Source: Agromyces sp. Root81 (GTDB taxonomy: Bacteria; Actinomycetota; Actinomycetes; Actinomycetales; Microbacteriaceae). From it: DNA of 64,000 nucleotides. Each line of letters opens with the position of its first letter. Positions within the stretch are counted from its first letter, which is position 1. The position numbers and the translations under genes were made by a program. The notes under the pieces are model-generated. The model was not told the origin of the DNA, ran no database searches, and saw only the letters and a program-made list of their open reading frames with translations. The stretch spans positions 270,875 through 334,874 of the forward strand of contig NZ_LMIR01000001.1 in NCBI RefSeq assembly GCF_001429165.1, given 5' to 3'. Shown piece after piece: positions 20,422 through 38,806 of this stretch.

Positions 20422-20495
20422 GGGGCGGTAGCTCAGCTGGTCAGAGCAGTGGACTCATAATCCATCGGTCACGGGTTCAAGTCCCGTCCGCCCTA
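20422..20495 (+). tRNA. tRNA with CAT anticodon (elongator Met or Ile2)
   Basis: A 74-base cloverleaf: acceptor GGGGCGG (20422-20428) pairs with CCGCCCT (20488-20494) with a G1-U72 wobble, the anticodon stem GTGGA/TCCAT encloses loop CTCATAA with CAT at 20456-20458, and the T arm is ACGGG-TTCAAGT-CCCGT. The discriminator is A. It is not the initiator, because the anticodon stem lacks the three G-C pairs. Elongator Met and TilS-modified Ile2 both have this loop, so the identity is left open. Its 3' end is the integration site of the island that follows. Confidence 0.94.
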
Positions 20496-20496
20496 C
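20462..20496 (+). repeat. attL: tRNA 3' end, left copy of a 35-bp direct repeat
   Basis: These 35 bases, from the 3' strand of the anticodon stem to one base past the discriminator of the CAT tRNA, recur without a mismatch at 37697-37731. The repeat begins CCATCGGTCACGGG and ends CCGCCCTAC. Duplication of a tRNA 3' end is the hallmark of site-specific integration by tyrosine recombinases. The tRNA gene itself stays intact at this side. Confidence 0.93.
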
Positions 20497-20801
20497 CGTA
20501 AATGGATGTGATCAGCCTTTCTTGCCTCCAGCGGAAGGCATTGACTGAGTTGCGCCTGAGTGACTCTTGAGTTCGTGTGTCGCTGGCTCTCCCCGCCGAT
20601 TCGGGATCACACGAATCAAGTGATGCGACCCATCGGAGTCAGGGCGACAGTGAAGCCCGAAGGTGGGTCGCGCAATCGGCTCCTCCCTCATGAGCTGCAG
20701 CGGGAGCGCCGATGTGTGGTCCCGAACAGCGAGCAGACGGTCGAGGTGCTTGAGCAGTCGACGGTCTCGCCCATTCGAATGCGTAAGTTACGAGGTATCC
20801 C
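20497..20801. other. Island left end, non-coding
   Basis: 305 bases between the tRNA and the YihY-like gene. No open frame is convincing on either strand. It contains one copy of an imperfect repeat (20509-20555) with a small hairpin TGCCT...AGGCA and probably the promoter of the YihY-like gene. Confidence 0.6.
20509..20555 (+). repeat. Imperfect repeat, copy 1 (see 39624-39669)
   Basis: Starts TGATCAGCCTTTCTTGCCT, carries a short hairpin and ends GTTGCGC. The first 32 bases match the copy at 39624 at 26 positions, and both end in GTTGCGC. It lies 13 bases past attL. Confidence 0.6.
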
Positions 20802-21671
20802 ATGGCTCAGTTGCCGGTGAACCGACTGGCGCGGGCGGGCGTGCGCTCGGCTGGCGGTCGCTTCGTGATGCGCGCTCTCCGAGACATCCGTGAGCTCGAA
20901 CTGTTCGATCGAGCGATGACGCTCGCTGCACAGGCGTTCACCTCCATCCTTCCGGTTCTGATCGTCGCTGGCTCGTTGCGGGGGAGCTTGAATCCAGAGG
21001 CGAATTCGTTGGTCGCCAACAATCTCGGCCTCGATGATCGCACCGCAGACCTGGTGCAGCAGTCCATGCCTCAGCAGGTCGAGGGCGTGACGCTCACGCA
21101 AGTCATCGCCGCACTGCTGCTCATCGTCGCCGCGACCTCCTTCGCCCGCGCGCTCGAGCGTTGCTTCCTGAGGATCTGGAAGACGCCGAAGGCCAGCATC
21201 CGCTTCGCGTGGCGTTGGGTCGCCGGGATCGTCGCGATCGTCATCGGATTGCTCGTCGTGGTCGCGACTCGCAACATCGTGCGCGGCACGGATGCCATCT
21301 CGGTGCTCGAGTTCATCCTCGAGGCGGCGATCTGGAGTGCGCTGTGGTGGATCGCGTCCTGGGTCGTGGTCAACCGCAGCATCAGCCTGCGGGCGCTTCT
21401 GCCGGGATCGGTGCTCGCCGGGCTCGGATTCGCCGTGGCCACGGTTGTGGGCCGCGCATATCTGCCGGGGGCGCTCGCTGCCTCCGCCGAGCAATTCGGC
21501 GTACTCGGACTCGCCTTCTCATACATCGGGTGGTTGTTCGTGCTGATGTCAGTGCTCCTTGTCGCGGTGACCATCGGTCGCGTCATTCACTTGGCCTTGA
21601 TCGGGCAGTTGTGGAGCCGCTCAGGCGAAGCGGCCGAAGCTCGCACATCGACAGACAGGGACCGGAAATGA
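20802..21671 (+). CDS. YihY/BrkB family inner-membrane protein
   Basis: 289 residues with about six membrane helices and the family pattern: an N-terminal amphipathic region RALRDIRELELFDRAMTLAAQ (interfacial), AAQAFTSILPVLI, a middle helix pair around residues 105-165, and the late segment LGLAFSYIGWLFVLMSVLLV. YihY/BrkB proteins are envelope proteins of unknown molecular function, once annotated as ribonuclease BN or virulence factor BrkB. The start is ATG 20802. It is the first gene of the island, reading away from the tRNA, and converges on the lipoprotein gene behind a GC hairpin. Confidence 0.85.
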   Translation: MAQLPVNRLARAGVRSAGGRFVMRALRDIRELELFDRAMTLAAQAFTSILPVLIVAGSLRGSLNPEANSLVANNLGLDDRTADLVQQSMPQQVEGVTLTQVIAALLLIVAATSFARALERCFLRIWKTPKASIRFAWRWVAGIVAIVIGLLVVVATRNIVRGTDAISVLEFILEAAIWSALWWIASWVVVNRSISLRALLPGSVLAGLGFAVATVVGRAYLPGALAASAEQFGVLGLAFSYIGWLFVLMSVLLVAVTIGRVIHLALIGQLWSRSGEAAEARTSTDRDRK

Positions 21672-21675
21672 GCCG

Positions 21676-21702
21676 CGCCCGCGAAGGCGATCCACGCGGG
21701 CG
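21676..21702 (+). terminator. GC-rich hairpin between convergent genes
   Basis: An 8-bp perfect stem (CGCCCGCG 21676-21683, CGCGGGCG 21695-21702) lies 5 bases after the YihY-like stop codon and in front of the 3' end of the convergent lipoprotein gene. No T run. Confidence 0.5.
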
Positions 21703-21731
21703 TGATACAGCGTCGCGACACGGCTCCGGAC

Positions 21732-22166
21732 TCAGCCTTCAGGCTGCTGAGTAGCGCACGCTGCGTTGATCTTCTCAACCGCCTCCCGGATCTCCGTCTG
21801 TTGCTCCGCCATCGCGTCGACGTCGAGTTCACCCTCTGGGTCGGTCGGTAGCGCGCCGACCGCCACCGCCGCCTCGCTGAGCGTCGCATCAAGCGCTTCC
21901 AGTGCGTTGGCGCTGTCGGGGTTGTCGGCCTTCTCGGCCAACGTTCCCGCGCGCTCGCCGTACCCCTCGAGGGTCGCCTGAATCTCGGCGGGGTCGTCGG
22001 CCGACGCGAGTGCGTTCTGCGCGCCGTTCGACAGGTCGCGCAGCGCATCCTGAATCGTCGCGCACGCGTCGGCGACCGACGTGGGAGCGGTGCCATCGGC
22101 GGCGCAGCCCGAGAGCACGAGTGCAGCTGCGAAGGCGAGTGCGGTGGTCGTGCTGGTTCCATTCAT
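21732..22166 (-). CDS. Small secreted lipoprotein of unknown function
   Basis: 144 residues. ATG at 22166 is preceded by GGGGAAG on the minus strand. The N-terminus is a lipoprotein signal peptide with lipobox LSGC (Cys at residue 21), so the mature protein would be anchored to the outer face of the membrane. The remainder is acidic, Ala-rich and probably all helical, with two further cysteines (ADACATI near residue 34 and NAACATQ near the C-terminus) that may pair. No family recognised. It reads in the same direction as the channel and DUF2252 genes upstream. Confidence 0.75.
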   Translation of the reverse strand: MNGTSTTTALAFAAALVLSGCAADGTAPTSVADACATIQDALRDLSNGAQNALASADDPAEIQATLEGYGERAGTLAEKADNPDSANALEALDATLSEAAVAVGALPTDPEGELDVDAMAEQQTEIREAVEKINAACATQQPEG

Positions 22167-22313
22167 GGTGACTTCCCCGATCCGGGTGCGCCCGGTTGGA
22201 GCACCCTCCGAATTTGGTGCGCCAGATGGTGGGCACCGAATGTGATCCACGCACGGAGTGCGTGATCCGATCAAGCAATTCGACCTGCAGTGGCTCCGGT
22301 CGCCGATGCGGGC

Positions 22314-22877
22314 TCATGATTCGTCCCCTTCGTCGGCATCAGTGTCCTTGGTCGCTCGACCCCGTTGGACCGCGGCGGTGAGCAGTCGGACGCCGGCGCC
22401 CAGGACGACCAGGTTCAAGATCATCTGGATCATGGCGAGGACACGCGCGGACTCGCTGGCCGGGCTGATGTCGCCGAAGCCGACCGTGGAGAACACGGTG
22501 ACAGTGAAGTACAGGGTGTCGACGCGGCTGAGGGGATCGGTGCTGAAGCTCGCGGGGTCGTCGCGTGCCATCAGGAAGTATGTGGCGGCGAACAGCAGGA
22601 GGTACAGGGGGACGATGACGGCGAGTGCCACGATCCCGCGACGTCCCGGTTGCGGCGACCGGAGGATCGCACGGATCTGCCACCACGATGCGGCGACCAA
22701 CACCAGCGGGGCCAGCACCAGAACGACGGAGATGGGCACTCCGTCGATCCAGGTGAGTGGGGCCAGAAAGTAGAGAGCCACGAGCATGACGGTCATGATG
22801 AGGGCCTGGAGCAACCCGCGCAGGATGAACCGACGGCGCTCGGCACGCGACATGTCTGATGTGATCGTCCCGGTCAT
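22314..22877 (-). CDS. Potassium channel family protein (Ion_trans_2)
   Basis: 187 residues from ATG 22877. Two N-terminal helices (about 22-42 and 48-66) precede the pore module: an outer helix (about 80-103), the pore loop VDTLYFTVTVFSTVGFGDI with selectivity filter TVGFG, and an inner helix MIQMILNLVVLGAGVRLL. The C-terminus is short and polar, with no RCK/TrkA-N regulatory domain. It would form a tetrameric K+-type channel without obvious ligand gating. Island neighbours are DUF2252 (52 bases upstream) and the small lipoprotein downstream. Confidence 0.88.
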   Translation of the reverse strand: MTGTITSDMSRAERRRFILRGLLQALIMTVMLVALYFLAPLTWIDGVPISVVLVLAPLVLVAASWWQIRAILRSPQPGRRGIVALAVIVPLYLLLFAATYFLMARDDPASFSTDPLSRVDTLYFTVTVFSTVGFGDISPASESARVLAMIQMILNLVVLGAGVRLLTAAVQRGRATKDTDADEGDES

Positions 22878-22929
22878 CTCGCCCTCCGCTCCCAGCTGTG
22901 CGTCGTCCCTGCGTCCTCGGCGAGCATGC

Positions 22930-24384
22930 TCACGCAGGGTCGGCTGCTTCGAGCCGCCCCGATGCCACTGCATCGGCGAAGGCCGAGTAGTCACGATCAT
23001 TCTGGTCGGCGTAGTCCCGAGCGAACGCAGCGATCGCATGGTCGAAGCGGTCGCTCCGGCCCAGATATGCGGCGATGGCGACACGGTCGCCTGCACGTGA
23101 ATGGGCGCGAGCGAGGGTCTCGCCGCAGATGTGTGCGTAGGCTTTGGCGGCCGCAGCATTCATGGTGTCGACGTCGGCGGAGCCCTTCCAGTCGTGCAGC
23201 TGCCGAATGTAGAAGTCGCGTTCGATTCCATCCACGCCTGGCTCGCGGCGCCAGCCGAGGAAGAGGTCGCTGGCCGCCTGCATCAGACGTTGCCCTCTGA
23301 CCACGCGTTCGCCGTGGTTCTCGTATCTGCTCGGCGGCAGGAATCGCTCCAGCACTGACGCCTCGGCTTGCTTGGCCTGCAGGAGGAGCGGGTCCTGATC
23401 GTCGCGACCGCGCAACAGGACGATCCACGCGCGTGTGCCGACGCTGCCGACGCCCACGACTTTACGAGCCATGTGCACGTACGAGAATTCACGCATCGGA
23501 TGATTCTGCTGATGCAGCGTCGACTGGTAGGTGGCCAGCACCTCCCGCATCCATTCCTCCTCCTGATCCCTCGTGCGGCCCTGTGGGAGGAGCTGCTCGA
23601 TCGGAACGATGAGCGGGGGATCAGCGGCGATCCGGAGCTCGCCATCGATCACCTCGACGAGCTTGGCGACGGCGCGAGTGCTGTCCTTCGTGCGTGCCTT
23701 CGCGAGTGCGGCGTCGGTGCGCTTCGCCAGCTTGTCAGCGGTGCGCTTGGACTGCCCGGCTGTGATCACATCGAGTATCCGGTCTGCGTCGAGCCGGTCG
23801 TACCAGGCGTCGAGTACTCGGTTCTCCGCCAGCTGCAGCATCCGCTCGCGATAGCCGCGCACGACGGTGAGGTTGATTTCTCGGCGCTGTTCGTCGGTGA
23901 AGTCACGACTCCGGCCGGCGACCTCGAAGCTCGCCGCGAGTCTCTTGACATCCCACTCCCACGGCCCGGGCAGCGTCTCGTCGAAATCGTTCATATCGAA
24001 TATGAGGGTGCGTTCGGGCGTGCCGAAGACGCCGAAGTTCGACAGGTGCGCGTCCCCGCAGATCTGGGTCGTGATTCCTGACACCGGTGTTCCCGCCAGA
24101 TCGGCCGCCATCAGCAGCGCCGCGCCGCGGTAGAACGTGAATGGCGACACGAGCATGCGCGCATGTCGGATCGGTACCAGTTCCGGCACGCGAGTCGTCG
24201 CCTGCTCCTCGAGCAGGGCGACCGGATCGGGCCGACCTGGCGGGGGCGTCCAGCCCTCGTGGGTGGAGCGAGGCGTGCGCCGCCGCGCTTCTCGGCCGTA
24301 CTCGACCCGAGCGGCGAAATCGCCGGCCATCGATGGAAGCTCGTTGGATGGTTCCTGATCAGCGATTGCGGTCTGCGTGGTCAT
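22930..24384 (-). CDS. DUF2252 domain protein
   Basis: 484 residues, no signal peptide, the usual length for DUF2252. The segment TQICGDAHLSNFGVF near residue 108, followed about 15 residues later by LIFDMNDFDE, resembles the catalytic-loop (GDxHxxN) and metal-binding (D-F) motifs of aminoglycoside phosphotransferase/HipA-like kinases. A kinase-like activity is therefore plausible but unproven for this family. Other conserved pieces are EWDVKRLAAS and REFSYVHMARKVVGVGSVG. It starts with ATG 24384 and is divergent from the AI-2E family gene. It probably heads a unit with the channel and lipoprotein genes. Confidence 0.85.
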   Translation of the reverse strand: MTTQTAIADQEPSNELPSMAGDFAARVEYGREARRRTPRSTHEGWTPPPGRPDPVALLEEQATTRVPELVPIRHARMLVSPFTFYRGAALLMAADLAGTPVSGITTQICGDAHLSNFGVFGTPERTLIFDMNDFDETLPGPWEWDVKRLAASFEVAGRSRDFTDEQRREINLTVVRGYRERMLQLAENRVLDAWYDRLDADRILDVITAGQSKRTADKLAKRTDAALAKARTKDSTRAVAKLVEVIDGELRIAADPPLIVPIEQLLPQGRTRDQEEEWMREVLATYQSTLHQQNHPMREFSYVHMARKVVGVGSVGTRAWIVLLRGRDDQDPLLLQAKQAEASVLERFLPPSRYENHGERVVRGQRLMQAASDLFLGWRREPGVDGIERDFYIRQLHDWKGSADVDTMNAAAAKAYAHICGETLARAHSRAGDRVAIAAYLGRSDRFDHAIAAFARDYADQNDRDYSAFADAVASGRLEAADPA

Positions 24385-24638
24385 TTCCGGAAGCTCCCAT
24401 CCGTCGGCGACTCCACGGCAACGGGCGGTTCGATCTCACGAGTCGCCGCTGTCGGAGCGCGTTCCTGCATGGCTGTAGGCCGCGATCAGTACATCCGGAG
24501 GGGCCACAAGCGGCATCACTCTCTTTAAGTGATTCGGACATTCGAAGCGGTGGCTACCGTCGTCGGCGAACGCGATGGGGCTTTGGTCAGGGACCGACTG
24601 CATCGTGAGCGGACCCATGAACCGAGATCGGAGACATC

Positions 24639-25901
24639 ATGCGGTGGAACAGGAAGCGATCGAAGGAAGCGCCGAGCGGGGGAGACCGGACTTACGCTCC
24701 GGCGCCTGCAGAGCCTCCGAATGCGCACCGCAACGCGTTCATCATGATGGGACTCGGAGGGGCGACCATCGCGGCCTTCGGCCTCGCGGCGATCGCCGGC
24801 GTCTTCGCCCCGTTCTTCCTCGGCGTCGTGCTGACGATCTGCGTGCACCCGCTCCGCGTGTGGCTCGAGAAGCACGGCGTCTCCCGCGGCATCGCGACCG
24901 GGGCCGTGATCATCACCGTCATCGGCCTGCTGCTCGCACTCGGGTACGCGATGCTGGTCGCGTTCGGGCAGTTCGGCGCCCTGCTGGCGGAGTTCAGCGA
25001 CCAGATCGCCGCGTTCGGGCAGGATGTCGCGGCCTGGCTGTCCTCGATCGGCGTCGCCGCCGGCGAGGTCGACGACCTCTCCGCGAGTTTCGACCCGTCG
25101 ACAGTGGTCGGGTTCGTCGGCGGTCTGATCGGCGGCATCACGGGCTTGACCTCGCTCCTCGTCATCGTGTTCACCATGCTGCTGCTCATGGGCATGGACG
25201 CCGCGTTCGTGCCGACGCTGCTCAAGCAGCTGTACCCGGCACGCCCGCTCGTCGTCGCCTCACTCGTGACCTACGGCGCGAACGTGCGTCGGTACATGGT
25301 CGCGACCACCGTGCTCGGGATCGCCCAGGGCGTGGTCGATTGGATCGCATTGGTCATCATCGGCGTGCCAGGCGCATTCATCTGGGGCCTGCTCGCGTTC
25401 GTCTGCTCGTTCATCCCGAACGTCGGGTACTTCCTTGCGCTCATTCCGCCGATCATCTTCGCCGCACTGGTCGGTGGGTGGCCGATGGTCATCGTCGTCA
25501 TCGTCGTGTATGCCGTCATCAACGGCGTCATCCAGTCGGTGATACAGCCGCGCGTCATCGGCAAGGCCGTCAACCTGAGCCAGACGATCACGTTCTTCTC
25601 GGTGCTGTTCTGGGCCGTCGTGATCGGCCCGATCGGCGCGATCCTCGCGATCCCGCTGACGCTCCTGGTACGCCTGATCCTCGTCGACTCGAACCCGCAG
25701 ATGAGCTGGATCCGCCCGCTGCTCGGCGAACTCGACGAGACGAAGGAGGCAATGGCGAGATTCGACGCCGAGGCCAAGGCTGAGCGCATGTCTCGAAGTG
25801 TCGTGAAGCCGAATGGAGTTCCGGAGGACGCGCCGCCCCGTCCGACCCCGCGCGAGGGGAGCGCGTCCTCGACTGACGCGTCTCGCCCGACCCATCGGTA
25901 G
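24639..25901 (+). CDS. AI-2E family transporter, island copy 1
   Basis: 420 residues with about eight membrane helices. Family traits: two N-terminal helices (about 30-75) joined by VLTICVHPLRVWLEK, a helical extramembrane segment, and the C-terminal core with GVPGAFIWGLLAFVCSFIPNVGY and VIQPRVIGKAVNLSQTITFFSVLFW. The family (UPF0118) was named after TqsA, but members have also been reported as Na+(Li+)/H+ antiporters, so the name does not fix the substrate. The N- and C-termini are long and polar. The start is ATG 24639. A CMD-like gene follows 15 bases later. Confidence 0.9.
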   Translation: MRWNRKRSKEAPSGGDRTYAPAPAEPPNAHRNAFIMMGLGGATIAAFGLAAIAGVFAPFFLGVVLTICVHPLRVWLEKHGVSRGIATGAVIITVIGLLLALGYAMLVAFGQFGALLAEFSDQIAAFGQDVAAWLSSIGVAAGEVDDLSASFDPSTVVGFVGGLIGGITGLTSLLVIVFTMLLLMGMDAAFVPTLLKQLYPARPLVVASLVTYGANVRRYMVATTVLGIAQGVVDWIALVIIGVPGAFIWGLLAFVCSFIPNVGYFLALIPPIIFAALVGGWPMVIVVIVVYAVINGVIQSVIQPRVIGKAVNLSQTITFFSVLFWAVVIGPIGAILAIPLTLLVRLILVDSNPQMSWIRPLLGELDETKEAMARFDAEAKAERMSRSVVKPNGVPEDAPPRPTPREGSASSTDASRPTHR

Positions 25902-25916
25902 CCGGGGAGGCAAATC

Positions 25917-26276
25917 GTGGACTACACCGAACGGCTGCGTCGCTTGGCGATCAACGCCGAGAGACTGGGAGAGACCAGCGCCGAAGGCGTCGGCACAGGT
26001 GATGCTTCTGTGCTCGATGCCAAAGCACTGGCTCTCGCCAGGATCGCGGCTCTCGTCGCAATGGGCGGCGCCGAGCCGTCGTTCGGATCATTGGCTGATG
26101 CGGCGGTGAGTGCTGGAGCCACGGCCGTTGAGATGGTGGATGTGCTCACCGGCATCATCGACATCGTGGGTGTTCCTCGAGCGGTCGTCGCCGCGCCTCA
26201 GCTGGCGATGGCGCTCGGCTACGACCTCGACGAGGGCGGCGACAGGGGAGGGGGTGCCGGCGTATGGCGGGGCTAA
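25917..26276 (+). CDS. CMD/AhpD-like protein without catalytic cysteines, copy 1
   Basis: 119 residues from GTG 25917, behind a GGGGAGG ribosome-binding site. The core LDAKALALARIAALVAMGG, then a helix AAVSAGATAVEMVDVLTGI and DIVGVPRAVVAAP, matches the carboxymuconolactone decarboxylase (CMD) fold. There is no cysteine anywhere in the protein, so an AhpD-type CxxC peroxidase reaction is impossible. A ligand-binding or structural role is more likely. It sits 15 bases after the AI-2E gene, probably in one unit, and overlaps the end of the convergent LuxR-type regulator by 4 bases. A paralogue lies at 32862-33218. Confidence 0.8.
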   Translation: MDYTERLRRLAINAERLGETSAEGVGTGDASVLDAKALALARIAALVAMGGAEPSFGSLADAAVSAGATAVEMVDVLTGIIDIVGVPRAVVAAPQLAMALGYDLDEGGDRGGGAGVWRG

Positions 26277-28519
26277 GCGCCGAGCAGGCCGGCCACTGTG
26301 GCGCGTTGTACCGCTTCAGCTCGCCTTGACACGTCGAACTTGCGGTAGATGCTGGCCAGCTCCGAGCTCACCGTGTTCCGCGAGACGTAGAGTCGCTCCG
26401 CTATCTCGCGGAGTGAGAGGTGGGTTTGGAGGTACGGGAGGAGTCGAAGCTCTGCCGGCGTCAATGGCGGACCGCCCTTCCAGCCGGACTGTTCACTCGA
26501 CGCGACCAGTCGTCGGAAATCCTCCACCTGATCGACGAGCGCGCCGAGTTGCGGTCGTCGAACCAGGATGTCCTCGACCTCTCGGAGCAGGTGGTGCGCG
26601 GCCGTGTGGTCATTGAGGGCCCAGTGCAGCTTCGCGAGTTGCAAGCGTGCACGCACTGAGACGTACGGCATCGCGAACGTGCACGCCGGGCGAGCCCGCA
26701 TGGCGCGAGCGATCAGCCGGTGCACAGCTGGCATGTCGCCTCGGTGGAGCGCGAACCGTGCGGCCATGGCGAATGCCATCACCGAGACGGAGTAGTCGTC
26801 CAACCCATGCTCGTCGATGGATTCCAGCGCGGTGTCGACATGCCCTGCTGCCTCGACCCATCGGCCGTCGTCCATGGTGATGAGCGCCAGCTCCGACTCG
26901 CTCAGTACGACACCGTCAGTATTGCCATGAGCCACCGCCACCGCTGTGCCCTCTCTGAAGGCGGCCTCCGCCTGGTCGAGGTCCCCGACGAGCAAATGAG
27001 CCTCACCAAGAAGGATGAGCGCCTGATCGCGCCACGGGCTCACACTCGATTCGGATGCGACGGCGAATCGGGCATCTGCCATCGCTTGGGCCGGCCCTGC
27101 CGCGCACATGAATGACCTGAGCATCGCCCGGTCGGAGTCGAACGATGCGGAGCCGTCGTCGGGCGGGAGGTCGTATGAGGCGTCAGCCAGCACGGCTGCC
27201 CATCGATCCGCGTCGTCCGCTTGGCCCACCAGCGCCGTGATCCACCCGGCGAACACCGCGAGTGGCGGGTACTCCTCGATCGCGCGGTCGCCGATCGTCT
27301 GGTACCAACGCTGAACCGTCGTGAGCAGCCCGAGCTGATAGACCTCGAGCGTGGTGGCGGCAACCAGGCGATTCGCTCGCTTCCGTTCGCTCGGAACTTC
27401 GAGCAGGTACTCGACAGCGACGGCGGGCGCCCGGTGCTCCTCGAACCACTCTGCGGCGCGAACTCTCAGCTCGGCTTCCATTTCAGGCTCCACGCGGGTC
27501 AGCTCGCCGAGCTGGAACTCCCGATAGAGATCGTGATACCGATACCACTCCCGCCGACGGTCGAGTGGAACGAGGAACACGTTGGATGCTGCCAGCTCGT
27601 GCAGGACGACCTGTGCGTCATCGCTGCCGAGAATCGCGTCGCACAGTGGGGCGGACAAGCGATGCAGCACCGCAGTTCGGCGAAGGAACCGCTGCTGGTG
27701 CTCGGGGAGGTTCATGAGCGATTCCTGGTACAGGTAGTCCGCGATGAAGCGATCGTCTCCTGAGACATCCAGAGTTCCGCCGTCGCGGGTGATCTCGGCG
27801 GCGAGGAAGACACCGACCGGCCACCCCTCGGTGCGCTCGACGAGATCTCCGGCCGCTTCGGGGCTCAGCGTCAGGTCTGCATCGGCGAAGATTGCGGCTG
27901 CGCCGACCGCATCGAGAGCGAGATCGGTCGCGGTGATCTCCAGCGAATCGCCGGACGCCCGCGCGTGGGTCAGATGCGGTTGCTCCGCTCTGCTCGCCGT
28001 CACGAGTTGTCGACCGGGCGCGATCCCAGCGATCACGACGGTCAGGACGTCGTGGCACGCGGGATCCCGCAGCTCCTGGAGGTCGTCGAGCATCAGCACG
28101 AACGGCGCCGGACTCGTTCGAAAGGCCGTGGCCACCAATGGCGCAGCACGGCCGAGGGCTGATCCGCGGTGTCTGCGTACGATATCTGCGAGGTGCTCCG
28201 TGCCAGGCGTGATCCGGTCGTAAGCCGACGCGAGCATGACGAGCAATGCGATCGGGTCGTCGTCGAAGCGGTCGAGCGACACCCATGCGACCGGACGGGT
28301 CTCGGTGTCCGCCCACTGCGCCAGGAGTGTCGACTTCCCATATCCGGCGGGCGCTGTGACGGCGACAACGCGCCGGTCTCCGGATCGCGCGGCGTCGATG
28401 ATGGCGGCGCGACTGACCGAACTCCGACGACCAGGTCGGGGAGCGGTGAGTTTCGCGTCGAGCAATTGACGTTCAAGCTCGACCTCCGACATGTGCAGCG
28501 CCGGGGCATCTTCAAGCAC
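26273..28519 (-). CDS. MalT-like LuxR family ATP-dependent transcription regulator
   Basis: 748 residues. A STAND-type nucleotide-binding domain begins with Walker A TAPAGYGKSTLL near residue 55 and Walker B-like VLMLDDLQEL near 140. It is followed by winged-helix and TPR-like helical repeats (about 300-650). A LuxR-type helix-turn-helix ends the protein: LTPAELRLLPYLQTHLS then LREIAERLYVSRNTVSSEL. Such regulators activate genes when ATP and an inducer bind. The start is GTG 28519 (ATG 28492 is possible). It is the only regulator in the island and so the best candidate to control it. The inducer is unknown. Confidence 0.88.
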   Translation of the reverse strand: MLEDAPALHMSEVELERQLLDAKLTAPRPGRRSSVSRAAIIDAARSGDRRVVAVTAPAGYGKSTLLAQWADTETRPVAWVSLDRFDDDPIALLVMLASAYDRITPGTEHLADIVRRHRGSALGRAAPLVATAFRTSPAPFVLMLDDLQELRDPACHDVLTVVIAGIAPGRQLVTASRAEQPHLTHARASGDSLEITATDLALDAVGAAAIFADADLTLSPEAAGDLVERTEGWPVGVFLAAEITRDGGTLDVSGDDRFIADYLYQESLMNLPEHQQRFLRRTAVLHRLSAPLCDAILGSDDAQVVLHELAASNVFLVPLDRRREWYRYHDLYREFQLGELTRVEPEMEAELRVRAAEWFEEHRAPAVAVEYLLEVPSERKRANRLVAATTLEVYQLGLLTTVQRWYQTIGDRAIEEYPPLAVFAGWITALVGQADDADRWAAVLADASYDLPPDDGSASFDSDRAMLRSFMCAAGPAQAMADARFAVASESSVSPWRDQALILLGEAHLLVGDLDQAEAAFREGTAVAVAHGNTDGVVLSESELALITMDDGRWVEAAGHVDTALESIDEHGLDDYSVSVMAFAMAARFALHRGDMPAVHRLIARAMRARPACTFAMPYVSVRARLQLAKLHWALNDHTAAHHLLREVEDILVRRPQLGALVDQVEDFRRLVASSEQSGWKGGPPLTPAELRLLPYLQTHLSLREIAERLYVSRNTVSSELASIYRKFDVSRRAEAVQRATVAGLLGA

Positions 28520-28606
28520 GATCGAAGCCTATTTGTTCGGGAGGGTGGCGCTCAATAGCCCTAAATGGGGGCCGTCCCTCCGTTTCAGAGCTCCCGGCCC
28601 GCGTCG

Positions 28607-29902: not shown

Positions 29903-29912
29903 GGCCCTCCTC

Positions 29913-31382: not shown

Positions 31383-31440
31383 GAGTGCGTCCCCGGTGCC
31401 GAGGACGCTGTGCCGGTGAGAGTCACGGCTCGTCTCCGCG

Positions 31441-32865
31441 TCATGCCGGATCCACGTCGGGCAGTGCCCACGTGCCGTCGAACGCCGGTGCGGTCGGACT
31501 GTACAGGCGGAACATCGGGTAGAACCCCCGCCCCGGTACCGTTTGAATCCAGTTCGTCTCCGGCGAATCGGCCGGTTCGGGCGCGAGGAACAGGTCGAGC
31601 GAACCGTCCGCATTCACTGCGAGATCGTCATACCCGGAGCGTGCAGCATCGTTCGTGGCGTTCTGCACCATCGAGCGTGTCGCAGTGTCGTAGAGCGTGA
31701 GCGACCAGAACGCTGCGGCCGGGGGATTCGCCGGGATGTGCAGTCGATAGGACCTTCCCCCGTCGAAATGGTTGCCGTCCCGATCCTTGAACGCCTGGAT
31801 GTACGTCGCTCCAGGCCCCGGCTCCATCCGCCCGATTCCCGGGGAAAGATAGATTGCGCCATACGTGTACTGCAGGCGTTCGTCGAGCTGGCTGTAGTGC
31901 TCGGCTTCTTGATCGGGCCTGACGAGGATCACCCAGTCCCATTGCGTGCCCGGGAACGCCGTAGCTCCGCTGATGCGCGAGGAGTTCTCGTACATGACGT
32001 TGCGGGCCATGGCATCGCCGAGCTCCAAGGCCTCTTCCAGGATCCTCGTCTGACGGTCGTCGGGCCGGAACGGCTTGCCCTTCTCGATTCCGAGCGGCTT
32101 GAGCATCGCCATGTGGAACCGGTCGTGCTCCTGGACAGGGTTGTTGTCGATGACGCGCGACAGTCGTTTCCAGAACTCCATTCCGCCCGGAGGTCTCGTA
32201 TCGATGGGAGCGCCCGAGATCGAGACGAATCGGTTCGGCGTAGGGGCCTCGCGATCGCTCCATGGGTAGACCTTGACGTTCCGGATGCGCTGCACGGCGT
32301 CCGGAACGTCGCCGTCCACGATGATGCCGCGGACCAGCATGTTGTGGTCGTGCATGTGCGCACGCACCGTGTAGTACCCCTCGTGCACTTCGTCGCCCTC
32401 ATGGCCGGGCGGCAGCACGAGGAACTTTCCGCCGTCGCCGGCGTAAGGCCCGGGGAGGCCGACGTCGACGAGCGATTTCTGCCAGAAGTCATCGACGAGC
32501 CCGACGATGGCCCCGGGCGGGATCTCGATGACTACCGGTCCTCGTGAGACGTCGAAGTTGACGAAGGCGTAGATCGTGGTGTCGTTGGCGGTGAGCCACA
32601 GCGATTTCGGATCGACGAAGTTGTCCGCGATTCCGAGATCGAAGGCGTCGATCCCGAGGTCGTCCTTTGCGACCAAGCGGATGGACTCGAATGACACGGC
32701 CGGGTAGGCCCAGAGGTAGGCCTGCACGGCGCGCTGGAAGTCCATCTCGTCGAAGAGCCGCTGAGAGGTGTCGGGAGTCGGACACCCCACGTCGTAGTGC
32801 AGCGGGCCGATTCGAGAGTCCACCGTGTCCGGGAGGGCCGGGATCGTGCGGTCGGAGTGAATCAT
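31441..32865 (-). CDS. DUF1254/DUF1214 domain protein, island copy 1
   Basis: 474 residues. The N-terminal DUF1254 domain covers about residues 35-165 (YLWAYPAVSFESIR, LTANDTTIYAFVNFDVSRGPV, VDDFWQKSLVDVGLPGP), and the C-terminal DUF1214 domain about 350-460 (GGRSYRLHIPANPPAAAFWS, LTLYDTATRSMV, TNWIQTVPGRGFYPMFRLYSP). There is no signal peptide, so it is cytoplasmic, unlike many proteobacterial members. The enzymatic role of the family is not established. ATG 32865 overlaps the stop of the CMD-like gene by ATGA, which implies coupled translation. Downstream lie cls and DUF2254. Confidence 0.9.
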   Translation of the reverse strand: MIHSDRTIPALPDTVDSRIGPLHYDVGCPTPDTSQRLFDEMDFQRAVQAYLWAYPAVSFESIRLVAKDDLGIDAFDLGIADNFVDPKSLWLTANDTTIYAFVNFDVSRGPVVIEIPPGAIVGLVDDFWQKSLVDVGLPGPYAGDGGKFLVLPPGHEGDEVHEGYYTVRAHMHDHNMLVRGIIVDGDVPDAVQRIRNVKVYPWSDREAPTPNRFVSISGAPIDTRPPGGMEFWKRLSRVIDNNPVQEHDRFHMAMLKPLGIEKGKPFRPDDRQTRILEEALELGDAMARNVMYENSSRISGATAFPGTQWDWVILVRPDQEAEHYSQLDERLQYTYGAIYLSPGIGRMEPGPGATYIQAFKDRDGNHFDGGRSYRLHIPANPPAAAFWSLTLYDTATRSMVQNATNDAARSGYDDLAVNADGSLDLFLAPEPADSPETNWIQTVPGRGFYPMFRLYSPTAPAFDGTWALPDVDPA

Positions 32866-33218
32866 GACTGATCCCCTTGGGCCTCGTCCTCGAGCTCGGC
32901 GACTTCGAGCTCCTCCAGCGCGATCTCGGCCGCGAGAGCCTTGACGATGTTGCCCGTCGCCGCCGCGACTCGCGCCGTTCCGACGATGGGCGCGATCGCC
33001 GTGAGGACTCCACGGAGGCGCTCAGCATCGAGCCCGACTTCCCCCGCTGCCTCCAGGTTGAGTGCATAGGAAACCGGAGGGGCTCCGACGGCGACCAGCG
33101 CGGCAACGCGCACCAGAACGAGCGTCTGGACGTCGAGGCTGGAGGCTTCCAACGAGTCTTCGGTCATTCGTGCGAGCAGCTCGAGCACGGGAGCGTCGTC
33201 GTCAGTTGCGTCAGTCAT
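32862..33218 (-). CDS. CMD/AhpD-like protein without catalytic cysteines, copy 2
   Basis: 118 residues from ATG 33218, behind GAAGGAC on the minus strand. The CMD-like core is LDVQTLVLVRVAALVAVGAP, a helix EAAGEVGLDAERLRGVLTAI and PIVGTARVAAATGNIVKAL, ending in an acidic tail. No cysteine is present, as in copy 1 at 25917-26276. It heads the minus-strand unit CMD - DUF1254 - cls - DUF2254 and overlaps the DUF1254 start by ATGA. The close coupling suggests that the two proteins act together, but no partner is known. Confidence 0.82.
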   Translation of the reverse strand: MTDATDDDAPVLELLARMTEDSLEASSLDVQTLVLVRVAALVAVGAPPVSYALNLEAAGEVGLDAERLRGVLTAIAPIVGTARVAAATGNIVKALAAEIALEELEVAELEDEAQGDQS

Positions 33219-33538
33219 GATGGGTCCTTCCCCCTGTTTGATGTGCACTTGGAGCGTTGCAAGACTCCACGCGTCATTGGACGCCCCGGCATCCTGCGTC
33301 ACATCACTCACATCGAGTGAAACCCCGTGGCGTGCAGTGAGATGCGGTTCGAACCCTCGTACGGAGCCGGCGGTGACGGTGTCCCGAGCCGTATATCGCG
33401 GATCGTTCACATTGGGTGATCCGGCCTTCGGTCGGCGCGAAGAGACTTCGACCCTCATGCGCAATCAGCGGACAGATGTCCTCTCCGGCGACGAAGCACC
33501 TCGCCTCGACGGGTTGCGTACATAAGAAGGGAAAACCC
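33219..33538. promoter_or_regulatory. Divergent control region between CMD-like and DUF1254 genes
   Basis: 320 bases without a convincing gene, between two divergent units that each include a DUF1254 gene. It holds two inverted repeats of similar type: TCACTC-N5-GAGTGA at 33304-33320 and TCAC-N5-GTGA at 33407-33419. These are possible operator half-sites for a shared regulator. A ribosome-binding site AAGAAGGG precedes the plus-strand start. The assignment as operators is inference. Confidence 0.4.
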
Positions 33539-35101
33539 ATGGACGGCACGAGGCCCTTGGGGGGCATGGAGGATCTGACACCGTTTTCGACTCCCGACAC
33601 GGTGGACAGCAGAGTGGGCACGTTGGAGTTCCGCGACGGCGCCCCGGCGGACGCGACAGCGGCGCTGCTCTACGATCACCTCGACTTCCTGCACGGTGTG
33701 GAGGCATTCCTGGGGTCGCTGCGCGTCGCCTCTCTCGCCGCGGTACGCCGTGGTTTCCTGGGTGCCGGCGTCGAAGACGGCGAGTTCATGCTCTTTCCCG
33801 AGCTGATGGATTCGTCATCGCTGTTCCTGACGGCGAACTGCGACACGGTCTACTTCTGGGGCTTCATCGACCTCGGCAACGGACCCGTGGTCCTCGAGAT
33901 CCCTGCGCTTGGCGCTCCGAGCGGGATCCTCGGCACGATCGACGACATGTGGTTCCGATGGGTCACCGATGTCGGCCTTCCTGGTCCGGATCGCGGAGAA
34001 GGCGGACGCTACCTTCTCGTTGCTCCCGACTACGACGGTCCACTTCCCGACAGCGGCTTCCACGTGTTCCATTCCCGGACCCGACGGGTGACCCTCATCG
34101 GGCGGGCGTTCATGATCGACAACGATCCGGCGGTCCCGGTTCAGGTGATCCGGGAGGGGGTCAAGGTCTCGCCGTACGTGCCCGGAGCATTCGGCACGGC
34201 GGTCGCGAGCTTCCTCGATGGACGGGCGCCACTCGCCGCCGCTCGGCCCGCGCCGGAGACACGGTTCGTCGAGGCCACCGGAATACCGGTGAACACGCTC
34301 TTCCCGAACGATTTCGGCTACTGGGAGCTCGTGCACCAGGCGCTGCAGGACGACCCGCCCGATGCGGGAGACCCCGAACTCCTCGGTCTGCTCGCTTCGG
34401 TCGGCATCGCCCACGGCGAACCCTTCGTGCCCGACGCCCGGATGCGGAAGATCTTGGAAGACGCCGTGGAGGTCGGCAACGCCACCGCGCGGACGGTCAC
34501 CTTCGCCGCCCGACCGGAAGAGGGCTTTGCGTACTACCCCGACTCGCAATGGCAGAGCGCGCTCTTCGTGGGCGGCTACGAGTTCCTCGACCCGCCCCCC
34601 GCCATCACCCCCGAGGGGCCAGTGCCCGCCGTGCGCAGCGGAGCGCGCAAGCTCGACTCCGCGACCAACTTCTTCTACATGGCGACGGGCATCACCCCCG
34701 CCATGTGCATGCGGCTCACCGGCATCGGCTCCCAGTACATCTTCGCGATGCGAGACAGCCGGGGTGAATTCCTGGACGGCGGTCGGAGTTATCGACTGAC
34801 CCTGCCACGCGACATCCCCGAGTCTCGCTTCTGGTCGCTGCTGCTGTACGACAACCAGACCCGATCGATGCTGCGAACGGATCAGCAGTTCCCGCGTGTC
34901 GGAAGTCAGTCCGGCACGATCCAGTCGAACGCGGACGGCTCGACCGACATCTACTTCGGACCCACCGCGCCCACCGGCATGGAGAGCAACTGGCTCCAGA
35001 CCGTTCCCGGGAAGGGGTGGTGGACGATCCTCCGCCTGTACAACCCCCTCGAGTCGTTCTTCGACAAGACCTGGCAGCCCAGCGAGATCCAGCCGATCTA
35101 G
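33539..35101 (+). CDS. DUF1254/DUF1214 domain protein, island copy 2
   Basis: 520 residues from ATG 33539, preceded by AAGAAGGG. The N-terminal TPDTVDSRVG matches the PDTVDSRIG of island copy 1, followed by DUF1254 landmarks (LTANCDTVYFWGFIDLGNGPV, VTDVGLPGPDRGEGGRYL) and DUF1214 landmarks near the end (GGRSYRLTLPRDIPESRFWS, LLLYDNQTRSML, SNWLQTVPGKGWWTILRLY). It is longer than copy 1, with extra residues in the middle. No signal peptide. It reads away from copy 1 across the shared intergenic region, and a small membrane protein follows after 78 bases. Biochemical role unknown. Confidence 0.9.
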   Translation: MDGTRPLGGMEDLTPFSTPDTVDSRVGTLEFRDGAPADATAALLYDHLDFLHGVEAFLGSLRVASLAAVRRGFLGAGVEDGEFMLFPELMDSSSLFLTANCDTVYFWGFIDLGNGPVVLEIPALGAPSGILGTIDDMWFRWVTDVGLPGPDRGEGGRYLLVAPDYDGPLPDSGFHVFHSRTRRVTLIGRAFMIDNDPAVPVQVIREGVKVSPYVPGAFGTAVASFLDGRAPLAAARPAPETRFVEATGIPVNTLFPNDFGYWELVHQALQDDPPDAGDPELLGLLASVGIAHGEPFVPDARMRKILEDAVEVGNATARTVTFAARPEEGFAYYPDSQWQSALFVGGYEFLDPPPAITPEGPVPAVRSGARKLDSATNFFYMATGITPAMCMRLTGIGSQYIFAMRDSRGEFLDGGRSYRLTLPRDIPESRFWSLLLYDNQTRSMLRTDQQFPRVGSQSGTIQSNADGSTDIYFGPTAPTGMESNWLQTVPGKGWWTILRLYNPLESFFDKTWQPSEIQPI

Positions 35102-35179
35102 CACGGGGCGCTGGCACGCGATGTCGTGGTCGATGCGCCTGATCCGTTGCGATCGGATGCGGATGGGAGGGAACCCTCG

Positions 35180-35620
35180 ATGACCATCGAGGAAGGCGAC
35201 AAGCACGATGACGATCTGACATCGTGGCGTGAGGACACCTACGCCACGCGCCTGAGCCGGCTCAAGCAGCGCCGCCGCGACGTCCTGGCGGTGGGCGCGG
35301 CGCTCACCGCTTTCGTGGTCGCCGTCGCCGCGGGTGGCGCCGCCGCCGGCATCTACAACGAGGTACCGGGCTGGCTGCGCGCGATGATCTTCACGTTCAT
35401 CATCATCGCGGGCAGCGGCCTCGCGTTCGCCTGGATGCGCTTTCAGGAAGAGTCGGAGCGCATCGAGGAGGCCATCGAACGTCGCGGTGACCTGGCGACG
35501 ACACGGATCGGCAACCGTCGCCCGCCCCGGCACGCCGACGCATTCTGGGTCGTCGGGCTGGTCTGCACCGGTCTCGCTCCAATTGCGTTCCTGACCGCGG
35601 CCTGGTGGGCCGCGTTCTGA
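35180..35620 (+). CDS. Small three-helix membrane protein
   Basis: 146 residues from ATG 35180, with GGGAGGG upstream. A charged N-terminus (residues 1-32) is followed by membrane helices at about 35-58, 67-87 and 122-145, the last one ending the protein (AAWWAAF). The loop between helices 2 and 3 is rich in Arg and Glu. No family recognised. It probably shares a transcript with the upstream DUF1254 gene and meets the convergent AI-2E gene one base later. Confidence 0.75.
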   Translation: MTIEEGDKHDDDLTSWREDTYATRLSRLKQRRRDVLAVGAALTAFVVAVAAGGAAAGIYNEVPGWLRAMIFTFIIIAGSGLAFAWMRFQEESERIEEAIERRGDLATTRIGNRRPPRHADAFWVVGLVCTGLAPIAFLTAAWWAAF

Positions 35621-35621
35621 C

Positions 35622-36719
35622 TCATTCCACCGGTTCCGACTCCGGCTCGTCAACGGGGTCCGGCTTGCCGGAGATCAGGGGAAGGGCCCATCGGGTGCGG
35701 GGGTCCGCTTCGACCAGAAGCGCCCTGGTTAGCAGGGTGAGCGGCACGGCCAGGAGCGCGCCCAGCGGCCCGATGACCCAGGTCCAGAACACGAGTGAGA
35801 GAAACGTGATGGTCGTCGACAGGCCCACGGTGTCGCCGACTACGCGGGGCTTGATCACACTGTCGCTCAGGAAGTTGACCGCGGTGTAGACGACGATGAC
35901 CGCGATCATGAGCCCGGGGCCACCGTGCAACAGCGCGATGAGGGCGGGCGGGATCACTCCGATGATGAAGCCGACGTTGGGGATGAAGCTGGTGACGAAG
36001 GCGAGGACGGCCCACACGAATGCGCCGGGGACGCCCAGGATCAACAGGGCGACGCCGTCGACGACCGCGACGCCGAGTCCGAACACGGTGTTGACGCCCA
36101 TGTAGTTCCGCGTGCTGGCTGCGAAGTTATTGAGCGCGGCGACCGGGTTGGGAAACCGATTCCCCAAGGAACGCAGGACCTGTCGGGTGGCATCCGTATC
36201 GAACACCAGGAAGAACAGCACGGTGATGAGGAACACGAGGTTGGTCAACACGCCAAGTGTGCCGCTCAACAGGGACGTCGCGAGCGCCGCGATCTGCCCG
36301 GGGTCGATGGCGTCGACGACGGCGTGGATCTGATCCGGCTCGACTCCGAGCTGGCTGAGTGCGTTCCCCGCGTTCACGACGGCCTCGTCGAGCTGGTCGG
36401 TGTACTGGGGGAGCAACGCGGCGACCTGCGCGACGGAGACGATCAGCGCGAGGGTGAGGAGGAAGATCAGCAGGTAGGCGGCCACCAGCATCACGAGTGA
36501 GATGGCCCATTTCGGAAGGCGCGTCCCCTCTAGCCAGAGGCGGATCGGATGCAGGCTGATCGTGATGACCAGGGCCAAGAAGACCGGCCCGATGATGTCG
36601 GCGATGGCCCTGGTCCCGGTGACGGTGATGGTGAAGGCAGCTGCGCCGAACAGGAGCGTCAGGGCGAACGGTCGTGCCCGTTCGAAGGCGTCGCGTGTCG
36701 AGCCTGGTCTATTTGTCAT
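35622..36719 (-). CDS. AI-2E family transporter, island copy 2
   Basis: 365 residues from ATG 36719, behind AGGAGAAC. About eight membrane helices, with the family pieces LVITISLHPIRLWLEG near the N-terminus, LGVPGAFVWAVLAFVTSFIPN, VGFIIGVIPPALIALL and VIKPRVVGDTVGLSTTITFL in the core. It is shorter than copy 1 at its termini but aligns along the core by eye. The sequence does not tell whether it exports a signal or exchanges cations. It is the last clear gene of the island before the right attachment site. Confidence 0.9.
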   Translation of the reverse strand: MTNRPGSTRDAFERARPFALTLLFGAAAFTITVTGTRAIADIIGPVFLALVITISLHPIRLWLEGTRLPKWAISLVMLVAAYLLIFLLTLALIVSVAQVAALLPQYTDQLDEAVVNAGNALSQLGVEPDQIHAVVDAIDPGQIAALATSLLSGTLGVLTNLVFLITVLFFLVFDTDATRQVLRSLGNRFPNPVAALNNFAASTRNYMGVNTVFGLGVAVVDGVALLILGVPGAFVWAVLAFVTSFIPNVGFIIGVIPPALIALLHGGPGLMIAVIVVYTAVNFLSDSVIKPRVVGDTVGLSTTITFLSLVFWTWVIGPLGALLAVPLTLLTRALLVEADPRTRWALPLISGKPDPVDEPESEPVE

Positions 36720-37696
36720 GGCGTTCTCCTGTTTCGATGTGGGTCGGGCGCCGTTGGCTACCGCGCCGTTGCGGCCAGGCACTGCTGCGGCGACCGGTCT
36801 GCACGGTATTGCGACCGCGTGTGCCCGGCATCACACTCTTCATACGAAGCGTCCTTCGCGAACTGAGCCGGATGTCTCTTCTGCATCAGAGCGTGCGGGC
36901 CCCGGCCGCGGGCCCGGGTCCGGTGGCGGGTCTGATCCATGGGGATGAGAGTCATGGCAGCAACCGAGCAGTAATCGAGACGCCGCGGCGGACGACGACG
37001 CCGAGTGGGTGGTCCCGGTTAAGTGGGTCCGGACCGTCCCCCAGAAGGACGCGTACTGGGGGAGAAGGGACTGTTCGCGAAGCAGAACAGCGCTTGCAAG
37101 CTCCGACAGGAGTCCACGCTCGAACGACTCACTCAGCATTTCGATGTGCATAGCGACGGCGAGTGAAGGTCGCGGATTCACCGTCGAAGCGCCACTGCGG
37201 CGTTTGATCGCGAGTTGATCTTCCTCAACGCAACCGCGGGTGAGTCATCCGTACACCGATTTCGTGAGCCCAGTCGATGGTCCGACACATAAGCAATCGA
37301 GCGCGTGGAATTGGCCCGCGACTGCACCACCGTGTGTTCTCTTTTGGGTTCGCGGACGAATTCGAGCAGTCGGTCTGTGTTTGCTCCATGCGTGCGTGAG
37401 GCGAACTGAATCCGATACTTCGCTTGTCGTGTGACGCGAGCCTGGCGGCTCGTCGCGTCTCCTCGGCGGCAAGCGGGTGGTTCAGGTGAATTTCGGGCAG
37501 GCCTCGACGGATGCCGAGAGCGGAAGTCACTTGATGCGTGGACGGTTATTGGTCGTTTATCTACTCGATCTGGCTCGAGGGGAGCCGAGGTGTTTCGATA
37601 CACTCGATTCAGGTTCGACGAGAAGAACCTGATCAGGTCGAGATCTCTCGAGGTATCGCGAGACTTTCACGCCTGGAGAGTGGCTTCCGGCGTAAG
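36720..37696. other. Island right end, no convincing gene
   Basis: 977 bases, visibly richer in A/T than the rest, especially from 37200. Short frames exist (for example 36840-37181 on the minus strand) but have no ribosome-binding site, no GC third-position bias and no recognisable content. From 37561 to 37670 there are several short inverted repeats, the best being CAGGTTC-N8-GAACCTG at 37610-37631, next to attR. These could be recombinase arm sites. The remainder may be debris of older insertions. Confidence 0.5.
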
Positions 37697-37731
37697 CCAT
37701 CGGTCACGGGTTCAAGTCCCGTCCGCCCTAC
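37697..37731 (+). repeat. attR: right copy of the 35-bp tRNA-derived direct repeat
   Basis: Identical over 35 bases to 20462-20496, the 3' end of the CAT tRNA. Only the 3' third of a tRNA is present here (no acceptor 5' strand or D arm), so this is an attachment scar and not a second tRNA. Confidence 0.93.
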
Positions 37732-37818
37732 TCCCAGAAGTATCCGATCAAACGGGGATTTCCAGCGGACTGCTGATCGTCTCCCGCCGTAGCGATGTCA
37801 CGAGACGTGGCGAATCTG

Positions 37819-37998
37819 TCACCAACGCTCTGCGTAGACAGCGCCGAGAGCGTCAACGGCGGCTCCTGTGGTGTCGTCCTGAGCGTGTGCATACGTGCGC
37901 ACCGTGACGCTCGGATCGTGCCCGGCGATACGCGCGACGACCGGCACCGGCACGCCCTGTTCGAGGAGCAAGCTGAGGGCGGTACCCCAGGTCAGGAG
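37819..37998 (-). pseudogene. Tyrosine recombinase (integrase) C-terminal remnant
   Basis: On the minus strand, 59 codons read from 37998 to a TGA at 37819-37821. They match the C-terminal catalytic end of phage-type integrases: TWGTALSLLLEQGVPVPVV, then ARIAGHD (the conserved G-H), then VRTYAHAQDD with the nucleophilic Tyr. An in-frame TAG at 37999-38001 interrupts the frame upstream, and the R-H box is not found, so the gene is truncated at its 5' side. It lies 88 bases beyond attR, outside the island as bounded, and probably comes from a second element at the same tRNA. Confidence 0.75.
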
Positions 37999-38045
37999 CT
38001 ATTTCGATTCTCCTGTACTCACTATCTCGCAGGTGTCATACCCGA

Positions 38046-38727: not shown

Positions 38728-38806
38728 GGGACCACATACTCCGTCCGGGCCGCTATCCGCGTCTCCCGCGCCTTCAATCTGTACACCTCGCCCCTGGACT
38801 CGACGA

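Follow-up and report, generated by a model that had tools for sequence, protein, structure and literature searches.

The tRNA-Met locus and element E1

The DNA studied here, called the window throughout, is a 64,000-nt stretch of Agromyces sp. Root81 (genome G000, contig C1, positions 270875–334874) within a genome of 4.16 Mb. It contains a tRNA-Met gene with a CAT anticodon, which we take to be of the elongator type, followed by a 17.2-kb element, here named E1, that lies between two copies of a 35-bp repeat (Table 1). The repeat corresponds to the 3′ half of the tRNA gene and is referred to as att (attachment site). An earlier inspection of the letters alone, the sequence-only reading, had described a perfect repeat and an intact tRNA gene on the left. 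Both descriptions held: the two copies were identical at 35/35 positions, and ARAGORN called a complete tRNA-Met(CAT) at 20422–20497 and no tRNA at the right repeat. At up to 3 mismatches the repeat had only two copies in the 4.16-Mb genome, against none for a reversed-pattern control and a chance expectation of about 4e-14 for the 35-mer in the genome, so it is not a widespread sequence; wide occurrence had been named as a finding that would speak against an island. Within the window no further 35-bp copy was detected at up to 9 substitutions, and no third copy was detected to the right of 37731 (up to 9 substitutions per 35 bp, or up to 4 per 19 bp). The tRNA 3′ end is thus directly repeated at the two borders, as expected of a genomic island, and E1 is an integrative element bounded by att copies at tRNA-Met. 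Each of the 28 loci of relatives that were scanned likewise has a tRNA-Met, and the gene to the left of the tRNA has its best relatives in Agromyces (A. fucosus and A. cerinus, 95%).

Table 1. Features of the tRNA-Met locus, with positions in the 64,000-nt window.
Feature	Position	Strand	Evidence
tRNA-Met, CAT anticodon; integration target, intact	20422..20497	+	ARAGORN
Left att copy, 35 bp, 3′ half of tRNA gene	20462..20496	+	exact repeat
Element E1, 17.2 kb, bounded by the att copies	20497..37696	.	repeat, empty site, unit census
E1 left-end arm motif TGATCAG...TTTCT, inverse of right-end core	20509..20522	+	at expected place
Candidate operator, ATCAC-N9-RTGAT dyad, upstream of YihY-like gene	20605..20627	+	pattern search
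YihY/BrkB-like membrane protein	20802..21671	+	Pfam PF03631
Small protein of no family, putative lipoprotein as judged from sequence	21732..22274	-
Two-TM ion channel, K+ channel-like; start uncertain, frame overlaps next gene	22314..23159	-	PF07885
DUF2252 protein	22930..24384	-	PF10009
Candidate operator between DUF2252 and AI-2E A genes	24514..24536	+	pattern search
AI-2E family transporter A (AI-2E A)	24639..25901	+	PF01594
CMD (carboxymuconolactone decarboxylase)-like small protein	25917..26276	+	PF02627
MalT-like LuxR (LAL) regulator	26273..28519	-	PF17874 + PF00196; NF003420 below cut-off
DUF2254 membrane protein	28607..29902	-	PF10011
Cardiolipin synthase; start uncertain, overlaps next gene	29913..31613	-	PF13091; TIGR04265 (NCBIfam) above cut-off
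DUF1254/DUF1214 protein a	31441..32865	-	Pfam
CMD-like protein b (CMD-b); start uncertain	32862..33464	-	PF02627
Candidate operator between CMD-b and DUF1254-b	33302..33324	+	pattern search
DUF1254/DUF1214 protein b (DUF1254-b); start uncertain, frame overlaps CMD-b	33416..35101	+	Pfam
Small membrane protein, 164 aa	35126..35620	+	no Pfam family over cut-off
AI-2E family transporter B (AI-2E B)	35622..36782	-	PF01594
Weaker candidate operator upstream of AI-2E B; 2 mismatches, not matching dyad pattern	36829..36851	+
E1 right-end arm block, AGAA-GAACCTGATCAG...TCGAGATC..CTCGAGG	37607..37658	+	matrix and pattern searches
Right att copy, 35 bp	37697..37731	+	exact repeat
Rest of variable zone: decayed E2 + other accessory genes	37732..54585	.	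A. mediolanus L036 + relatives
C-terminal tyrosine-integrase remnant, 59 codons; left end of older element E2	37822..37998	-	PF00589

The cargo of E1 is a coherent cluster of 14 genes, including a cardiolipin synthase, two AI-2E family transporters, an ion channel and several membrane proteins or proteins of DUF families. That they serve in envelope stress is a conjecture based on the kinds of gene present. DUF1254-b is a relative of the solved protein VPA0735 (2p3y/3vb9), which its structure record leaves uncharacterized, and in the open-access literature searched no paper was found that joins DUF1254 with DUF2254 or with DUF1214. The GC content of E1, 63–67% in 2-kb steps, falls only slightly and stays near that of the flanks.

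The absence of integrase, phage and conjugation genes reported by the sequence-only reading was borne out by Pfam in the 14 E1 proteins scanned, and a whole-genome scan for the tyrosine-integrase family PF00589 gave no match inside E1 at E≤10. No phage family passed the Pfam cut-off in E1, the single weak sub-cut-off match being to a holin in the 164-aa membrane protein, and no Pfam replication or packaging families were found. Other classes of element were considered and set aside. An integrative and conjugative element (ICE) or its actinomycete form (AICE) was rejected, since an integrase together with conjugation or translocase genes was not found by Pfam in the 14 proteins, and a prophage or phage satellite because Pfam found no structural, packaging or hijacking genes in E1. 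An anti-phage defence island was likewise rejected: PADLOC, run on 10 of the 14 proteins, found no known defence system; its only matches were DrmC/Mko-type phospholipase D (PLD) profiles for the cardiolipin synthase and, for the LuxR regulator, one of CARF-HTH type.

A family of tRNA-Met elements with shared ends

The tRNA-Met locus was strongly matched in 59 of 60 Agromyces genomes, the exception (G050) being 77% complete, and additional copies of the tRNA 3′ end were present in at least 28/60, Root81 included, some of them on other contigs. The ends of these elements were compared using 40 att copies fetched among the matches listed, plus those of G009 and of the window. Upstream of att, a conserved 52-bp block was recovered by leave-one-out matrices at 33 of the 41 sites outside the window, with an offset of −89 to −91 from att in all but one (−100). 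E1 carries this block at its right end. With a matrix built without it, the block of the window scored 30.8 against 17.6 and 13.2 for the next best places on the plus and minus strands; with a refined matrix of the 33 aligned sites, again excluding the window, it scored 58.0 against 3.5 and was the best place in the 64 kb. A pattern search that made no use of att retrieved 23 places in 20/60 genomes (reversed pattern, 0), and its sole match in Root81 was the right end of E1. At 19 of the 23 places a tRNA-Met-type 3′ half with 0–9 differences followed 65–67 bases on; the other four (L319, L322, L328 and L331) had no such 3′ half, one of them (L322) lying about 1 kb from tRNA-Met and another (L328) retaining a piece of att. 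In sequence, the right end of E1 was 82% like that of G026 and 78–85% like two of G024.

At the opposite border, the reverse complement of the right-end core was found within 35 bp to the right of att or tRNA in 27/54 flanks, at a threshold of 11.0 set to pass 1% of control stretches (8/702). The flanks included 11 of 30 tRNA loci, those on the plus strand; the tRNA flank of G009 entered the set as two rows, one of them displaced by 11 bases, and neither row had the motif. In E1 the motif lies at the expected place, and the first 30–50 bp of the element were similar to six other left ends (best E 2.8e-6), of which four adjoin the tRNA (G038, G048, G007, G003) and two a distal copy (G037, G032). 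Of the four beside the tRNA, two (G003 and G048) are accompanied by an integrase, which is lacking in the other two (G007 and G038). Because the left motif is the reverse complement of the right core, the ends would form inverted repeats flanking att in a circular form, an arrangement that would match what is expected of integrase arm sites.

Some strains also differ in the tRNA gene itself. The tRNA-Met genes of G010 (C1:311025, L334) and G029 (C25:158528, L336) have a 3′ half of another sequence, in which the T-stem change is compensated, and this variant, or a close form of it, was present away from the tRNA in G002, G010, G024, G041, G044 and G045, following the right-end block in G002, G010 and G024. 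These sequences fit replacement of the tRNA 3′ half by an incoming element, the variant of G010 and G029 apparently having been delivered in this way. No published description of this element family was found among the open-access papers listed by the searches. Extra tRNA-Met 3′ ends also occur in Cryobacterium (L060 at 16595 and L087 at 20921), with element ends that look similar by eye, and in Mycetocola (L082 at 20478), where the ends look similar in part.

Integrases in the bounded units

A census of bounded units covered 21 genomes, taken from a set of 24 with Root81 added and G004, G029, G041 and G045 left out on account of copies on other contigs. It gave 31 units, counts that are approximate as long units may hide diverged att copies, and 7 of them contained an intact PF00589 gene. 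All intact integrases lay in tRNA-proximal units (7/21 vs. 0/10 distal units), including the proximal units of G024 and G026, which have the E1-like right ends. Nine units of 1.3–5.2 kb gave no PF00589 match, and seven of these carry the right-end block. The integrases at tRNA-Met of G003, G023, G024, G026, G041, G044 and G048, together with one at a contig end in G004, form a single family of 60–95% identity; that of G001 is of a different kind. The sequence-only reading had suggested that the mobility gene is absent or comes from elsewhere, which accords with the shared termini and with the scarcity of integrases in sibling units. An integrase paralogue of Root81 was considered as the recogniser of att and rejected, its identity to the family being low (43–47%) and its site a tRNA-Pro gene.

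The empty site and the wider variable zone

A junction of the tRNA with the sequence to the right of the second repeat, which had been proposed as the form of an unoccupied site, was found in G009. There, tRNA-Met adjoins a homologue of the window from 37732 onward, and the alignment across tRNA and flank was identical at 259 of 329 positions. At a distance of 90 bp beyond the right repeat of Root81 lies a fragment of a tyrosine integrase (PF00589, E 0.009, below the family cut-off) that had gone unnoticed in the sequence-only reading. This remnant was 84% identical to the end of the integrase beside the G009 tRNA-Met, a gene that itself has one in-frame stop, and its region gave no match to plasmid records. 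The G009 junction and this match indicate that E1 entered at the tRNA and separated it from an older element, here named E2.

The island as previously delimited (20462–37731) stands as an element with a 14-gene cluster, but its right border is not that of the accessory DNA, since the variable zone continues past 37731. In A. mediolanus (L036), a homologue of the window from 54607 onward begins about 0.5 kb after the tRNA, providing an empty site for the whole zone, and in Cryobacterium (L089) the homologue of a DNA-polymerase-family gene (57617) begins 177 bp after the tRNA. Because these genomes place the core near the tRNA, about 34 kb from 20497 to approximately 54.6 kb are variable; E1 is the tRNA-proximal half, and the core resumes at a flotillin-like gene (54586). 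Two close relatives, G019 and G035, have different DNA adjoining the tRNA. The distal half (37732–54585) encodes, among others, an ArfB-like RF-1 protein, an NAD epimerase, an enoyl-CoA hydratase, a third DUF1254/1214 protein, an M24 peptidase and an oligopeptide ABC transporter, and pieces of it recur, differently arranged, in G009, G014, G019 and G035.

The cargo cluster in relatives

Synteny of the cargo was followed in G045, G001, G009, contig C4 of Root81 and those contexts in other genera that were examined. The 14-gene cluster was found in the same order in G045 (C23:283977–302714), with proteins 72–88% identical and AI-2E B truncated. It lies near tRNA-Ala(GGC) with a 44-bp repeat of its own, at which AI-2E B is cut. 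On the YihY side it has a tRNA-Met-type att (5/35 differences) and a left-end-like motif; an integrase lies between this att and tRNA-Ala, i.e., outside the att. Eight cargo genes were found in G001 at a different location. DUF1254-b exceeded 56% identity in G045 alone among the other 59 genomes (G009, 56%), and no E1 protein was found beside tRNA-Met in the loci of 80 named relatives, which reached at most 10 kb past the tRNA.

Further from the tRNA, G009 holds relatives of four cargo genes 35–42 kb to the right of tRNA-Met (C1:1460098–1466262; 40099–46263 of joined L240–L242), namely YihY (78%) and DUF1254-b (55%) together with parts of CMD-b (73%) and of the ion channel (58%). The genes are distantly related and shortened, and an operator-like site precedes YihY. 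Within the 57 kb that were read, a search allowing up to 10 substitutions found no att near them, and the only copies were the two already known, at 0 and 5.2 kb. These genes are read as distant kin rather than as E1. The same genes at the same place but without a second repeat, which had been proposed as counter-evidence, were not encountered in that form, G009 being the nearest case.

Outside Agromyces, a core of regulator and CMD gene recurs in other genera; the family-wide LuxR search covered 398 genomes, G045 and G001 excluded, with at most two candidates scored per genome. Root81 itself carries a second LuxR/CMD/AI-2E/ion-channel cluster on C4 (360476–376278; L182, L183); it is 50–86% identical, and the 36 kb read there contained no tRNA.

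A candidate operator and its proposed regulator

A dyad, ATCAC-N9-RTGAT, recurs in the cluster, upstream of YihY, between the DUF2252 and AI-2E A genes and between those for CMD-b and DUF1254-b. In E1 it gave five strand-hits at three places vs. 0.4 expected, and in the rest of the window one hit vs. 0.3 expected. A fuller operator pattern, allowing up to 2 mismatches, had 19 matches at 16 distinct places in the Root81 genome (reversed control, 0). Four of the 16 are in E1 (binomial P 5e-7) and three in the C4 cluster; two more precede genes for PLDc_N-type membrane proteins (window 15297; C2:890780), and among the other seven one was inspected (C4:425220), with no related gene there. Stretches from other genera contained at least one dyad in 7/8 cases, partly at sites outside the cluster; the stretch without one was that of G122. 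We propose that the LAL regulator (a large LuxR-type protein) may bind this candidate operator.

Two observations concern the sites outside the element. In the window, the candidate operator at 15202–15224 lies upstream of a gene for a PLDc_N/SHOCT-like membrane protein (15297–15689), and the copy at C2:890780 lies between the PLDc_N gene and a sulfatase gene.

Origin and mobility of E1

With considerable confidence, E1 can be viewed as a 17.2-kb integrative element that entered by site-specific recombination, was probably moved in trans and carries a cluster with a proposed regulator. In its circular form, the 35-bp att, i.e., the tRNA 3′ half, would be flanked by inverted arm sites, the right-end block before it and the left-end motif after it. 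The arm sites would be read by a tyrosine integrase, presumably of the kind found beside tRNA-Met in other Agromyces. Integration into the tRNA-Met(CAT) gene would then rebuild the tRNA with E1's own 3′ half and displace the earlier boundary, together with the decayed integrase of the older element, 17 kb downstream. An integrase of the donor or the recipient probably moved E1 in trans. As no close integrase was found in Root81, the element would now be stranded there. Once in place, the LAL (MalT/LuxR) regulator would probably bind the dyad operator before the cluster promoters and control genes of the envelope, namely those for YihY, the cardiolipin synthase, both AI-2E transporters, the ion channel and the DUF1254, DUF2252 and DUF2254 proteins.

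Several observations weigh against this view. With regard to recombination, the empty site is known from one genome, and its alignment outside the tRNA is only about 72% identical by our own count; the right-end block is missing at 8 of the 41 att sites outside the window, and the left-end motif of E1 scores 5.7, below the threshold. The left end resembles units without an integrase (G007, G038) as well as those with one. The nearest integrase of Root81, beside tRNA-Pro(GGG), is only 43–47% identical to the family. Neither an excised circle nor transfer of E1 was observed. As to the cargo, relatives of 4 of its 14 families sit to the right of the same tRNA in G009 with no att nearby, so that some of it may be related to genes native to this region. 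The operator enrichment is partly post hoc, the motif having been noticed first in E1 and then extended.

The most serious rival, to which we give appreciable weight although we think it somewhat less probable than its negation, is classical decay to a cis-mobilizable element (CIME). E1 would have had its own integrase by the tRNA, integrated alone and lost the gene, after which it could move only with a neighbour. Loss of the integrase after integration would give the same picture as that seen here, and for tandem tRNA islands this route has been published (PMC5704250). Intact integrases are absent from all 10 distal, presumably older, units, the integrase beside E1 is itself decayed, and 97 bp between the tRNA and the start of homology to G045 (20594) have no assigned content. 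E1, however, is proximal to the tRNA and probably the youngest unit, yet no trace of an integrase was detected at E≤10. Its relative in G045 likewise has none between the tRNA-Met-type left att and YihY, the nearby one being on the tRNA-Ala side, and the nine short units without PF00589, seven of them with the right-end block, also speak against decay. On these three grounds, the apparent youth of E1 without integrase trace, the similar state of its G045 relative and the commonness of short integrase-less units, movement in trans is slightly favoured over integrase loss.

That E1 and the older remnant arrived together as one composite, the 17 kb not being an independent insertion, seems improbable. 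The integrase remnant does lie 90 bp from the right repeat, and such composite transfer is known (PMC5704250); against it, G009 has the element of the remnant at its tRNA without E1, and the ends of E1 resemble those of units with another integrase family (G003/G048 on the left, G024/G026 on the right), the left end also those of integrase-less units. A segmental duplication or chance repeat in ordinary chromosomal DNA, with no mobile element at all, is very hard to credit: no circle was seen, the GC content of E1 is close to that of its flanks and distant relatives of four of the genes lie in this chromosomal region in G009, but the empty site in G009, the shared ends, the second location of the cluster and the unique repeat all speak against it.

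Comparison with known systems

E1 resembles known CIME-like tandem tRNA islands. According to PMC5704250, CIMEs are att-bounded, lack integration and transfer genes and are accreted with ICEs or integrative and mobilizable elements (IMEs), e.g., in ICESt1-related islands. E1 has the structural part of this definition: it keeps both att copies (attL and attR) without integration or transfer genes and lies in tandem at a gene 3′ end. As to an origin by gene loss, E1 shows no integrase trace, and its shared ends are compatible with loss as well as with movement in trans. For mobilization in cis, the neighbouring integrase is a 59-codon remnant and no functional partner was seen beside it. Unlike a typical CIME, E1 is proximal to the tRNA, is probably younger than the adjoining integrase relic, and has arm sites common to the units of many genomes.

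A second parallel is offered by the ssrA islands of Dehalococcoides (vcr-GI), many of which stand in tandem downstream of one RNA gene (PMC3146451), each with a direct repeat of the 3′ end, and have an integration module at the left edge in some cases and none in others. E1, in tandem without an integration module, is like those islands that lack it. The systems differ in that the Dehalococcoides islands use a tmRNA gene and a serine recombinase (PMC3146451), whereas tRNA-Met, tyrosine recombinases and conserved inverted arm sites are involved here. E1 also differs from the tycheposons, in that no recombinase was found in it. As tRNA-flanked elements, tycheposons have a tyrosine recombinase of their own. 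Tycheposons, which PMC11389934 mentions, and other hitcher elements resemble E1 in carrying cargo that may depend on helpers.

Significance

The combination of att with two arm motifs provides a concrete and testable definition for islands without a mobility gene; with it, integrase-less cargo can be delimited exactly and movement in trans becomes a question that can be asked. The swapping of tRNA 3′ halves, apparent in some strains, could make the order of arrival and the donor traceable. The operator ties the cargo to chromosomal genes and gives a first handle on the uncharacterized DUF1254, DUF2252 and DUF2254 proteins. More tentatively, and with slightly less than even confidence, we suggest that Microbacteriaceae (Agromyces, Cryobacterium and, in part, Mycetocola) may carry a family of tRNA-Met elements that are recognized by their ends and not by an integrase. 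Their cargo units would have nothing but att and inverted arm sites, stand in tandem arrays, rewrite the tRNA 3′ half on arrival and be moved in trans by integrases of one common family that a minority of units retain, the cargo of E1 being an entire regulon that would join a regulator–operator circuit found at other places in the host genome.

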